Below, piece by piece: positions 6,392 to 20,366 of a stretch of 23,160 nucleotides of DNA. The notes beneath the pieces are model-generated. The model worked only from the letters and a program-made list of their open reading frames with translations, searched no databases and was not told the origin of the DNA. Both the position numbers and the translations under genes were made by a program. The stretch spans positions 1 to 23,160 of IMG/VR virus record IMGVR_UViG_3300023174_000656. One strand, given 5' to 3'. This DNA comes from a virus. Every line of letters starts with the position of its first letter. The first letter of the stretch is position 1.

Positions 6392-6959
6392 CTATGCTAA
6401 ATGCAACACATACTTATGCTTGTAAAAAGAGCCCACTTTTATATGACCCAGATTTTCCATCTGTTGTTTTGTTCTGTTTACCGTGGCTTTATTCGCAACT
6501 TGTTTTCCTTCTTTAGTAAGCCATCTTGGATATGGGCCTGTTCTCCCTACATATGTCCAATTGGCTGCTGCGTACACACCACCTGTATGATTTTGGCTTT
6601 CATCGGCATAGGTAACTAACGATACAAATCTTTTTTCTTTTTTTTATTATTTTTATGCTTTTTGACAAAAGAAAAGAGCATGCGTTTTTTGGAGTGTCTG
6701 GACGCATAACCATCCGCGTTAGAGACAACACTTTTTTCCAGTTATCTTTATTTACCGATTCGCAAGCAACTCTGGTAGGTGGCAGCCACCACACTACGCC
6801 AAATAACTCATCTGTATATTTAAGATACAGCCCATGGAGGTATACCCCCGTGTTAGAAGCACCTTTGGCATAGTGGTATTGCTCCACTAAAACACGTGCA
6901 TCGGGTATTGGTACTGGTCTTACCTCCCAATCCTCTGCATGAAGCGGGTATCCTTCCAT
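6392..6959 (-). CDS. mom: Mom-like adenine modification protein (GNAT fold), frameshifted
   Basis: Related to phage Mu Mom, a GNAT-fold enzyme that converts adenines in phage DNA to a carbamoylmethyl form and so blocks host restriction. The N-terminal part reads from 6959 (119 codons to a stop at 6600-6602) and has QYHYAKGASNTGVY (27-40), FGVVWWLPP (53-61), LTRMVMRPDTPKNACSF (80-96) and a Ser/Lys/Ile helix. The conserved C-terminal part (VTYADESQNHTGG, then VYAAANWTYVG) continues in the next frame to 6392. The shift lies in the A-tract 6645-6631 (eight A, G, six A). Removing one A, or a +1 or -2 shift, gives a 188-residue protein of normal architecture. The gene is clearly more AT-rich than the polymerase gene next to it, which suggests transfer. 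It could be a dead gene, a sequencing error, or expressed by slippage. Confidence 0.8.
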
Positions 6960-6962
6960 TTC

Positions 6963-9896
6963 CTACCCCTTCCTGTATCGGTATGTTTCAAAACCCGCTG
7001 CAGCCAGCGGGATGTCGGGCGCCCAAGCGGGGTTGGCCGCCAGCAGGCTGGCCAGGTGCTTGGCGTTGTACTGCGGCTCGTCTGGTGCCTCCGCAATAAT
7101 TTCATCATGCACAGTGAGCACAATCTGGTAGCCCGCCGCCTCAATCAGGGGCATGTTGGCCGCCATGATGTCGCGCGCCACGGCTTGGGAACAATTTTCA
7201 AACAGCTTGCCCCCGTGTGTATGTATGCGCGTCCACTTCCGAGTGTACTGGTCGATGCCCATGTACGTGATCTTGTCGCCGTCCTCAATCTTGGGTGACG
7301 GGTAGCACATGGCCCGGCCCGAGGGCAGCCCGAGCACCAGCCAGTTCTTGCTGGCCCGCACCTTCAGGCCTAGCTCGTTGAAGGTGGTGCCTCGGTTAAG
7401 CAATGCCTTGATCACCAGATCCTTGAGCGCGGCCCAGTAGTTGGTGATGTTGGGGTGGGCGTCGCGCCACATGCGCTTCAGGACGTCACAGGCCACGAAG
7501 GCGTCCTCGGACAGCCCGTACATGGGCCGCTTGTCCTTCTTGGTCCAGCCCAAAAACTTGTCGGCCTTGGCCACCACGTCATCGGGCGCATCCAGAAGCA
7601 CCTTGTCGGCCAGGTCGTCCAAGTTGATGCCATAGGCCCCCGCAAACGTCGCAAACGCGCCCACGCCGCCCTCGTAGCCGCAGTTGTGTACCAACAGTGG
7701 TCCCCGATTTGTAATCACTGTAAACCGATTATTCGGGCCGCTGTTCAAGATGTCGAATACGGGCCTCAAGGTCAAATATTCGTTGTTGCATTTCCCTAAC
7801 GGTGCGTTTGTTCCCTCCTCGGTTTTCTCCCAAGGGTATAAACCGCAAATTACCCGGTTCGTAACCTTTATTGACGTCAATACGATCCATGTCAAAAGAG
7901 GGCTTATCCCAACCTTCCAGGGTGACAACGTACTGCAAAAATGCGGCTTTGTCTTTCCGCCATAGCGGCCAGACATGAATCCCCCGGCCACCATACGAGG
8001 GGTACTGTTTGCTAGTAGTGTTGTGACACCGGTTGTTGCATGCTGATAGCCTGTTGAGTAAGCGCCTGCGGTGGTCATCATCTGGGCAGGCATCGGCATA
8101 TTTGAAAAAGCTCTTACGCCAATGACCAGCTTGTTTTTTAGCGCAACGGTTGCAGCGCGTACTGGCTCCTTTACGCAAGTTGTACCCAAATACCAAATGT
8201 GGTTCTGCGCCGCACGCACACTGAACCCGAACCATGTCCTGCTTGTTTGCGCCGGTACTGCGGCGCTCAATACCCAAGACGGTAAGTTCTCCGAACCTGT
8301 CTCCAATGCCCGGCAAAGGATGTTTTCGTTCAAAGCGAGTTGCTGCGCCTGCGTCCAAGTTGTCCCGGTTCTGATCAAATGATCCGGCGTTACTTCTATA
8401 CCGGCGAGGTTTAACGTCGCCCGAAAACCCTTCGGTATCAATCCCTGATGTTGAACCCATTGCTTTCCGTCCCATAGCAAATCCTCCGTAGTAACTGAAT
8501 GTAGTAATTTTATACCATTGTTGGTTAATACGGGGGTATACGCCCCAAAACAGGCCAGCTCCATCACCTTGCCGCGTTGGCGTAATTCGTCATTCACTTG
8601 TTCGGCTTTTATACCAAAAGCCTTCGCGTAGGCCAGCTTGTACAGGTCAGGGCCCACCTTGGCGTCGAAGTCGCGGAAGGCTTGGAGCTTCCATTCCTCG
8701 TTGGCCAGCCAGCTCTGCACGCGGCCCTCGATGTTGGACAGGTCGGCCACCACCAGTTTCTTGCCAGTGGGCGCCACGATGCAGCTACGGATCGCCGAAC
8801 TCACCAGCTCCATGACGTTGTCGGTCGTCAGGTGCGCGCACCCAGCGCGCAGCGCCTCAATTCCCGCGTCGATCGCCTTCTGCTTGAGCGTGGGCCTGGG
8901 CAGGTTCTGGGGCTGGAACAACCGCCCCGCCCAGCGCCCCGTGCGGGTGGCGCCGCAGAACTGCAACAGCCCACGCAGGCGCCCGTCCGCACTGGTGCCC
9001 CGCATCAGCACGCGGTACTTGGCCGTGCTGGTGCTGCTGGCCTGTAGCCGGATCAGCAGCAGCTCGCGCATATCGGGGTTCAGGTCAAGCGTGGCCAGTG
9101 CCTTCTCAATCGTGGCCATCTGCAGGTCGGGCAGGTCAATGCCGAAGGCCTCAAACAGGTGCAGCCGGAAGACCTCGTTCAGGGTGGCACTGGCCACGCT
9201 GCCGTCGGTCAGCGCCTGCGTGCGCCCAGCCAGCTCGCGCTTGGCCCGGTCAATGGCCTCAATAGCCGAGTACACCAGACCAAGGTCAATGGCCACGCCC
9301 CGGTCGTTAATGCGCTGGTCGAGCTGCCACAGCTCGCGCTCGGCGGGCGTGAAGTTGATCATGGGCATGCGCTTCTTGATCTCCCGCATGGCCTCTACGT
9401 CAGCGGCGGCGTAGGCCTTGAAGCGCTCCCAGTCCTCTGGGTGCGTCTCGCGGGTGGCGCGGTCGAGCTTGCGGTTCTTGCCCAACGGCTTGGTGAAGAG
9501 CTGGATCAGCCGCTTGCCGTCCTTGTCCTTGGCCTTGTCGGAAGGCAGTCCCAGCACCTCGCAGAGCATGCCCAAGCTGCCGGGCAGGCTGTGGGCCATG
9601 GCCTGGACCATGGTGTCGTGTATGCGGCTGGTGGGGATGTCAATGCCCCAGACGTGCCGGATCACCGTGCGGTCGAAATGGGAGTTGTGGATCACCACCT
9701 CGACGTCGGGGTCGTTGAAACCCGCCACGACGTGCCAGGGCAGTACATGGGGTAGTGTGAAGTCGGTCACCTGCACCGGGGCATCGTCCCATGCCCATGC
9801 CGCGAGCAGTATCTCTGCATTCGCAGCATAGGCATGGGTGCCATGGGTAATCGGTGTCTTGGAGAATGTCTCCAAGTCGAGGTAAAGCGTTCGCAT
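6963..9896 (-). CDS. polA: DNA polymerase I (family A) with 3'-5' exonuclease and in-frame intein, 977 aa precursor
   Basis: The replicative phage polymerase. Exonuclease motifs: LDLET with D7/E9, IHNSHFD with N71/D75, and YAAAD with Y162/D166. Polymerase motifs: TGRWAGRLFQPQNLPR (319-334), motif A ADLSNIEGR (384-392, catalytic D385), motif B RGKVMELA-CGYEGG split by the intein, and motif C TVHDE (928-932, catalytic D931). There is no 5'-3' exonuclease domain, as usual in phage enzymes. The position equivalent to E. coli Phe762 is Leu447. An intein occupies residues 449-738; after splicing the enzyme is 687 aa. No good Shine-Dalgarno precedes ATG 9896, but the exonuclease motif begins at residue 6, so the start is secure. 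It sits in the early operon after the SSB gene. Its activity depends on intein splicing because motif B is incomplete without it. Confidence 0.95.
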   Translation of the reverse strand: MRTLYLDLETFSKTPITHGTHAYAANAEILLAAWAWDDAPVQVTDFTLPHVLPWHVVAGFNDPDVEVVIHNSHFDRTVIRHVWGIDIPTSRIHDTMVQAMAHSLPGSLGMLCEVLGLPSDKAKDKDGKRLIQLFTKPLGKNRKLDRATRETHPEDWERFKAYAAADVEAMREIKKRMPMINFTPAERELWQLDQRINDRGVAIDLGLVYSAIEAIDRAKRELAGRTQALTDGSVASATLNEVFRLHLFEAFGIDLPDLQMATIEKALATLDLNPDMRELLLIRLQASSTSTAKYRVLMRGTSADGRLRGLLQFCGATRTGRWAGRLFQPQNLPRPTLKQKAIDAGIEALRAGCAHLTTDNVMELVSSAIRSCIVAPTGKKLVVADLSNIEGRVQSWLANEEWKLQAFRDFDAKVGPDLYKLAYAKAFGIKAEQVNDELRQRGKVMELACFGAYTPVLTNNGIKLLHSVTTEDLLWDGKQWVQHQGLIPKGFRATLNLAGIEVTPDHLIRTGTTWTQAQQLALNENILCRALETGSENLPSWVLSAAVPAQTSRTWFGFSVRAAQNHIWYLGTTCVKEPVRAATVALKNKLVIGVRAFSNMPMPAQMMTTAGAYSTGYQHATTGVTTLLANSTPRMVAGGFMSGRYGGKTKPHFCSTLSPWKVGISPLLTWIVLTSIKVTNRVICGLYPWEKTEEGTNAPLGKCNNEYLTLRPVFDILNSGPNNRFTVITNRGPLLVHNCGYEGGVGAFATFAGAYGINLDDLADKVLLDAPDDVVAKADKFLGWTKKDKRPMYGLSEDAFVACDVLKRMWRDAHPNITNYWAALKDLVIKALLNRGTTFNELGLKVRASKNWLVLGLPSGRAMCYPSPKIEDGDKITYMGIDQYTRKWTRIHTHGGKLFENCSQAVARDIMAANMPLIEAAGYQIVLTVHDEIIAEAPDEPQYNAKHLASLLAANPAWAPDIPLAAAGFETYRYRKG
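7683..8552 (-). mobile_element. Intein in DNA polymerase A, 290 aa, inserted in motif B
   Basis: A protein-splicing element, read in the polymerase frame. Block A starts at Cys449 (CFGAYTPVLTNNG), an N2-like block is DLLWDGKQWV (472-481), and block B is GIEVTPDHLIRTG (499-511) with the expected Thr503 and His506. Block F is VFDILNSGPNNRFTV (713-727) and block G is GPLLVHN ending at Asn738 with penultimate His737. The first residue of the downstream extein is Cys739. All residues needed for Cys-type splicing are therefore present. The splicing parts total about 120 residues (449-528 and about 700-738). The 170 residues between them match no endonuclease in this frame; the DNA there encodes an HNH enzyme in another frame. 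A group I intron is unlikely because both junctions and the whole insert stay in frame. Confidence 0.93.
7729..8475 (-). CDS. HNH homing endonuclease nested out of frame inside the polA intein, 248 aa
   Basis: Probable homing endonuclease of the intein, translated separately from a frame offset from polA on the same strand. ATG 8475 has a strong ribosome binding site (GGAGG, 7 nt spacing). The conserved part starts with GDRFGELTVLG (58-68), the usual beginning of this phage HNH family. A zinc finger follows with C86-x-C88 and C108-x2-C111, then NNRCHN (147-152), YGGRGI (161-166), and the nuclease core DMDRIDVNKGYEPGN (195-209) with GENRGGNKR (216-224). The first 55 residues overlie intein splicing blocks and resemble no family. 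The C-terminal 25 residues are a charged helix. It would cut intein-free polA alleles and promote homing; this is inferred from its location. A translation product of its own is likely but not proven. Confidence 0.88.
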   Translation of the reverse strand: MGRKAMGSTSGIDTEGFSGDVKPRRYRSNAGSFDQNRDNLDAGAATRFERKHPLPGIGDRFGELTVLGIERRSTGANKQDMVRVQCACGAEPHLVFGYNLRKGASTRCNRCAKKQAGHWRKSFFKYADACPDDDHRRRLLNRLSACNNRCHNTTSKQYPSYGGRGIHVWPLWRKDKAAFLQYVVTLEGWDKPSFDMDRIDVNKGYEPGNLRFIPLGENRGGNKRTVREMQQRIFDLEARIRHLEQRPE

Positions 9897-19859: not shown

Positions 19860-20366
19860 ATGACTGCGCAAATTCTAACCCAAGCTCGCCTGCGCGAGCT
19901 GTTTTACTACGATCCCGCTACTGGTATTTTTACGCGCAAACTGGATCGCCAATGCGTTAAAAAAGGACAGATTGCGGGAAGCCCAAACGAATTTGGGTAC
20001 TTAAAAATCGGTATTGGCAAAAAAGTGTACTCCGCCCATCGGTTAGCTTGGCTGTACCTTTACGGGGAAATCCCAGAAGGCGTTGAAATAGACCACATAA
20101 ATCGAAACAAAAGCGATAACCGCATTGCTAATTTGCGTTTGGTTACACACCAACAAAACATGGAAAATCAAAAAACCCACGTAACCAACAAGAGCGGATA
20201 CAAGGGCGTAAGCTGGTGGGCGCCAACGCAAAAGTGGAAAGCTCAAATCGGGCATCAAGGTAAAAAATATCACATCGGTTTGTATCAAACCAAAGAAGAA
20301 GCGAAAGCCGCATACGAAGAACGCGCGCAACAAATACGTACACATCATTCAAAGGAAACCGTATGA
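19860..20366 (+). CDS. HNH-AP2 homing endonuclease, free-standing, 168 aa
   Basis: An HNH nuclease fused to an AP2-type DNA-binding domain, the usual make-up of free-standing phage homing endonucleases. An N-terminal strand region (ELFYYDPATGIFTRK) leads to the nuclease core: YSAHRLAWLYLYGEIPEG (59-76), IDHINRNKSDNRIANLRLVT (80-99) and QQNMENQ (102-108). The AP2 part follows (NKSGYKGVSWWAPTQKWKAQ, then GKKYHIGLYQTKEEAKAAY). It has lower GC than its neighbours, as expected of a mobile gene. The stop overlaps the next ATG by 4 nt, so the insertion is tightly packed and has caused no visible damage. Confidence 0.92.
   Translation: MTAQILTQARLRELFYYDPATGIFTRKLDRQCVKKGQIAGSPNEFGYLKIGIGKKVYSAHRLAWLYLYGEIPEGVEIDHINRNKSDNRIANLRLVTHQQNMENQKTHVTNKSGYKGVSWWAPTQKWKAQIGHQGKKYHIGLYQTKEEAKAAYEERAQQIRTHHSKETV

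Follow-up and report, generated by a model that had tools for sequence, protein, structure and literature searches.

The window analysed here is a 23,160-nucleotide stretch of viral DNA, positions 1 to 23,160 of IMG/VR record IMGVR_UViG_3300023174_000656. Its minus strand carries a DNA polymerase gene, polA, whose 977 codons form a single open reading frame (ORF) without a stop anywhere along it, and our subject is an intein in this gene that encloses, in a different frame of the same strand, an entire ORF for an HNH endonuclease. The coordinates are collected in Table 1. Both exteins match family A polymerase in a protein family search, and the insertion point GKVMELA/CGYEGG lies in polymerase motif B.

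Table 1. Features of the polA locus in the window
Feature	Position	Strand	Description
polA ORF	6963..9896	minus	977 aa precursor, 3'-5' exonuclease and family A polymerase, interrupted by the intein
N-extein	8553..9896	minus	residues 1-448, ends GKVMELA in polymerase motif B
Intein	7683..8552	minus	290 codons, Cys1 to Asn290; assigned by motifs, predicted intein fold and absence from close relatives
Intein N-terminal splicing part	8265..8552	minus	residues 1-96: Cys1, LWDGKQWV, TPDH
Intein middle	7782..8264	minus	residues 97-257, 161 codons, predicted disordered, stop-free; the other frame holds the greater part of the HNH core
Intein C-terminal splicing part	7683..7781	minus	residues 258-290, ends LLVHN
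Cys +1	7680..7682	minus	first C-extein residue; Leu in the nearest intein-free alleles
C-extein	6963..7682	minus	CGYEGGVGAF..., stop codon included
HNH endonuclease ORF	7729..8475	minus	248 aa, in the intein's -1 frame; coordinates include the stop
Conserved HNH core	7741..8313	minus	residues 50-240 counted from ATG 8460: Cys81/83/103/106, H130, R144, D192-R193, N204
GGAGG, possible ribosome binding site	8483..8487	minus	7 nt before ATG 8475
ATG spanning an intein Trp codon	8458..8460	minus	family-common start position, NTG, mostly ATG

The complete set of intein blocks that an earlier, sequence-only reading had listed in the polymerase frame is present: in precursor numbering Cys449 (8552-8550), TPDH at 503-506, HN at 737-738 and Cys739 (7682-7680), with TPDH at 55-58 and LVHN at the end in the intein's own numbering. 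C1, T55, H58, H289 and N290 are invariant among 49 aligned inteins, and the +1 residue is Cys or Ser in 55 of the 55 inteins tallied. The intein frame matches phrog_93 at 1e-15, and no Pfam family scores above its cut-off for either the intein frame or the HNH protein. The structure prediction for the intein is confident only at residues 1-96 and 258-290, with predicted local distance difference test (pLDDT) scores of about 96-97 over residues 1-90 and 94-96 over 258-290, and it leaves residues 97-257 disordered. About 170 codons between the splicing halves had been described as open; open they are, and the unstructured middle comes to 161 codons. The closest fold matches of the model are solved inteins, with gp41-1 at 8e-4. 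Judged by the features tested, namely the block A Cys, the TxxH motif, the final His-Asn, the +1 residue, a predicted HINT fold and an in-frame insert missing from homologues, the element is an intein.

The HNH ORF is out of frame with the intein because its first base sits 77 nt after the first base of the intein. In the protein family search that had been proposed as a check, its product matches phrog_374, labelled 'HNH endonuclease', at 1e-31 and phrog_3377 at 1e-17. D192-R193 and N204 are invariant within the family, as are the Cys and active-site-like residues. The structure prediction is poor over residues 1-45 and confident across most of 50-240. By the features tested, the partner of the intein is an HNH-family enzyme with an altered Asp-His motif.

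With the HNH alignment as query, viral and genome contigs yielded 85 loci in the same register as the window. In all 85 the HNH is open, and the intein-polymerase frame is open across it and has intein motifs, while the third frame carries 4-39 stops per locus. Since the search started from the HNH protein, it should have picked up in-frame or free-standing members of the family just as readily, and among these 85 first-family loci there is no in-frame HNH, no free-standing copy, no HNH stop and no interrupted intein frame. The sequence-only reading had named an in-frame HNH and an interrupted intein frame as signs that would speak against it, and neither occurs in the 85 loci or in 37 further nested loci of the other register, to which we return below.

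To put numbers on the open frame, synonymous codons were shuffled within each HNH core, of about 173 codons, for 73 dereplicated copies. Every one of them is free of stops in the intein frame, where 3.1 per copy are expected, and the third frame has 11.1 against 11.5 expected, with the caution that the 73 copies share ancestry and are not 73 independent tests. For the window alone, shuffling that preserves the HNH protein and its codon usage predicts 4.5 stops over 176 codons; this replaces the figure of about 8 first proposed for a random frame of 170 codons, and the zero that is present is still significant, being reached in fewer than 1 in 1000 of 2000 shuffles. A frame open by chance is rejected given the stop avoidance, which holds in both families, and given the control of free-standing HNH relatives, which have 5-17 stops in each other frame. 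A sequencing artefact is rejected too, the layout being found in independent isolate and metagenome records.

Another reading would make the insert a group I intron that encloses an endonuclease gene, its open frame being incidental. Nested HNH genes are usual in introns, and Sodalis phage SO-1 (L014 2578-3336) has its gp38/gp39 annotated as 'type I self-splicing intron', an annotation for which there is no Rfam support. Against this, the frame is always open, and the intein motifs and predicted fold are in place. Group I and group II introns are rejected on the Rfam covariance models, which give no match in the window or in seven relatives, and we give the intron reading almost no credence.

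Selection was examined by an overlap-aware version of the codon-based ratio of nonsynonymous to synonymous change (dN/dS), with differences classed by their effect in both frames. Over the HNH core the HNH dNN/dSN is 0.10 (0.07-0.12) and the intein dNN/dNS is 0.63 (0.51-0.80), a value that may be near neutral, as transition bias may inflate the intein synonymous changes. Over splicing blocks A to B, which HNH residues 2-48 overlie, the intein ratio is 0.29 (0.17-0.44) and the HNH ratio is 0.45, the latter rising to 0.76 in more divergent pairs. Purifying selection acts strongly on the HNH core, where the intein middle is nearly free of it, and the reverse holds over the splicing blocks. The predicted structures agree with this division. 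Codon ratios in both frames had been suggested as a measure of double coding, and their partition, along with stop avoidance, supports double coding.

A further possibility is that the HNH frame is a dead relic of a former endonuclease, no longer translated. Decay does occur: in the second family described below, the HNH is cut short by a stop in L133 and L150, whose intein frame is open, which appears to be what a decaying endonuclease would leave. The low ratio over the HNH core, the invariant Cys and active-site-like residues, and the lack of any HNH stop in the 85 first-family copies make a relic extremely improbable.

The family-common start is an NTG that arises from the intein's conserved Trp codon, and in the window it is ATG 8460. 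In the 93 copies where it is placeable, it is ATG in 70, GTG in 13, TTG in 6 and CTG in 4, and nearly all copies have an ATG 44-60 codons ahead of the HNH core, mostly at 50-53. One might suppose instead that a ribosome on polA slips by -1 inside the intein, giving a fusion of N-extein, N-terminal intein part and HNH with no separate HNH protein. The HNH frame is indeed the -1 frame of the intein, and in many copies it is open for a short distance upstream of the start. However, slippery heptamers of the -1 type in the right phase are present in only 13 of the 73 copies and at scattered positions, and the second family has the +1 register. A frameshift joining the two frames had also been named as an observation that would count against nesting, and no conserved slippery site is found. 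Because an ATG recurs before the core and slippery sites are rare and scattered, the sequences favour separate initiation from an internal start over frameshifting, and we consider the fusion quite improbable. In many of the loci L026-L110 a further NTG, most often GTG, lies 18 codons upstream of the HNH core and could serve as an alternative start; it apparently derives from a different invariant Trp codon of the intein (W66).

The polA inteins of Caulobacter phage RLK, the APSE phages, Shewanella phage SFCi1 and Streptococcus Javan113 have a related HNH in the other shifted (+1) register. A profile comparison with the RLK/APSE pair relates the two HNH families at E = 8e-19. This second family has 44 classified viral loci, with 37 nested out of frame, 7 free-standing and 0 in frame, and the nested copies (n = 32) have 0 stops in the intein frame versus 170 expected, with 321 versus 299 in the third frame. 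Most second-family inteins occupy a different PolA site, and L144, L152 and L154 have a nested out-of-frame HNH in inteins of SNF2-like helicases. At five loci (L054, L066, L067, L071 and L133) a single polA has a pair of inteins, and the HNH nested in one is in the -1 register while that nested in the other is in the +1 register, so that all three frames of one strand are used. The two registers could reflect either two origins or a register switch.

The comparison of polA homologues with and without the insert, which had been proposed as a check, found both kinds, including exact empty sites. Members of the window's family that have no intein include L161 and L162, with C-exteins of up to 97% protein identity. 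The intein-free junction of L161 reads GKVQELA/LGYEGG, with Leu at +1, so an invaded allele would also have gained the Cys needed there. The 100 nt immediately upstream of the site show 60-72% nucleotide identity between L161 and the window, against about 88-98% farther out, as a short co-conversion tract would give. In Jerseyvirus, an 897-bp insert in SETP3 is exactly missing from skrot, and divergence peaks in the 100 nt around the site (82%). Across genera the element is more alike than the exteins, at 83% identity versus 64-65% between Jerseyvirus and Dhillonvirus and at 97.5% versus 76.5% for the N-extein between SETP3 and Kagunavirus fEg-Eco19, and hence intein and HNH travel together. 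Presence and absence at one site, co-conversion of the flanks and transfer between lineages point to a homing footprint.

The nuclease could alternatively act on the DNA of competing phages or on some other target, with the intein serving as a protected residence. Free-standing HNH relatives do occur in phages, and nucleases of the homing type can work between phages. Homing nevertheless predicts what is seen here, namely an insert exactly present or absent at one site, short diverged flanks, and more similarity in the insert than in the exteins, and a target other than homing seems unlikely to us.

We consider it very probable that the element is a mobile PolA intein whose splicing and homing functions are coded by one stretch of DNA in two frames. 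The two ends of the intein would form a splicing domain in the polymerase frame, excise themselves and restore motif B, and the approximately 160 residues between them would be an unstructured linker kept merely stop-free. The -1 frame of the same DNA would give an HNH-family endonuclease, made separately from an internal start near the conserved Trp codons. This enzyme presumably cuts intein-free polA, and repair would copy the whole insert with both genes together, short flanks copied along with it bringing the Cys needed at +1. As for origin, it had been proposed that an HNH gene invaded a mini-intein; this fits the mini-intein without HNH at the PolA motif-B site of Ruminococcus phage NatCom_29429 and the free-standing HNH relatives, and the direction of the event is what we infer.

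Four points weigh against this account. The HNH has Asp-Arg (D192-R193) where the canonical HNH ORF aligned with it has the usual Asp-His. No solved structure matches the HNH model, PDB searches by sequence and by fold giving nothing convincing. The first claim of an HNH of 248 codons within the intein with its own GGAGG holds for the out-of-frame ORF and does not extend to the GGAGG as a general site, for GGAGG is present only in the window and its closest relative (L001) and no general ribosome binding site for the HNH was found across the family. The co-conversion pattern could also stem from ordinary recombination.

That inteins with an out-of-frame endonuclease are a general class of mobile element we hold to be probable. 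They occur in both registers, at several PolA sites and in SNF2-like helicases, they are never in frame in the survey, paired inteins code in all three frames, and intein Trp codons appear to supply the HNH start. With splicing and cutting assigned to separate overprinted proteins, the expression, decay and evolution of the endonuclease would be uncoupled from splicing with the DNA still linked. If this is true, the PolA inteins in databases that seem to be endonuclease-free, including some 150 Salmonella phage records, would be mobile elements. They would also form a large natural collection of overlapping genes in which selection is sharply divided, and cultivable phages with and without the insert make homing directly testable.

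The closest published relative is the ShiLan domain, which along with the Pacc40 insertion presents an out-of-frame HNH in methylase genes (Arsenault, Gosselin, Gogarten 2025, PMC11855218). It shares the out-of-frame HNH in an insert with an open host frame and a homing-like distribution in phages, but no splicing element was found in it and the host protein is thought to retain the insert, whereas here a complete intein with a predicted fold surrounds the HNH. Canonical large inteins, such as PI-SceI, PI-MtuI and the LAGLIDADG helicase intein of Ent2, similarly have endonuclease-coding sequence between blocks B and F and form one homing unit. Their endonuclease is a domain of the intein polypeptide, an arrangement found in none of the nested loci here, since in 85/85 and 37/37 the HNH has a frame of its own and forms a protein apart from the intein. 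Split inteins in the 'fractured genes' of Dassa 2009 (cited in PMC3229294) reportedly have an independently translated endonuclease gene between the halves. Their host gene is in two ORFs and splicing is in trans, while here polA is one ORF. Group I introns with a nested HNH gene, such as I-PfoP3I in a phage DNA polymerase (PMC3428280), likewise place an endonuclease gene inside a self-removing element that homes as a unit; removal at the RNA level leaves the intron frame free, while an intein, being removed from the protein, needs a frame that remains open.

Overlapping coding sequences of this kind have been recorded. The APSE-1 RefSeq record (NC_000935) lists the HNH coding sequence APSE-1_46 inside polA, and SO-1 lists gp38/gp39; both are nested out-of-frame HNH annotated as overlapping genes, and both are annotation lines only, that of SO-1 as an intron. 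The full-text literature gave no description of an out-of-frame endonuclease inside an intein, with preprints and most subscription journals beyond reach. PMC549080 cites the 1999 APSE-1 paper for phage inteins, and earlier notice of the arrangement is possible.

About 164 annotated phage records cover the greater part of the HNH and about 167 that of the intein, mainly Salmonella Jerseyvirus, with other carriers in E. coli Kagunavirus, Dhillonvirus, Pseudomonas MR14, Vibrio 97.13 and EBPR siphovirus 2. The sequence-only reading is confirmed in what it observed and supported in how it interpreted this, and the layout proves broader than it had noted, being common in phages that include well-studied ones of Salmonella and E. 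coli. The insertion sites in motif B vary (ELA/CGY, GKA/CELG, GKV/CILG and others). Frames were read in twelve of these records, and among the annotated first-family records examined only SO-1 lists this HNH. In Salmonella phage Ent2 (L023) the polA intein is annotated as 'encoding splicing domains' only; a few genes away (from 4951) its helicase intein has, by annotation, a LAGLIDADG endonuclease in frame, which puts both layouts in one phage. Frame breaks in the intein region of Salmonella phage SS3e (L015), and the annotation of polA in Salmonella phage SE2 (L022) as two coding sequences around an open intein, are probably sequencing or annotation errors.

Two other genes of the window deserve mention. 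At 6402-6959 on the minus strand there is a gene for Mom-like DNA modification (phrog_1384, 3e-19). An A-rich run at about 6630-6646 interrupts its reading frame, and the remainder of a Mom-like protein follows in another frame, by a frameshift, a programmed slip or an assembly error. Far from polA, at 19860-20366 on the plus strand, a second, free-standing HNH of the canonical Asp-His type matches phrog_99 at 2e-70.

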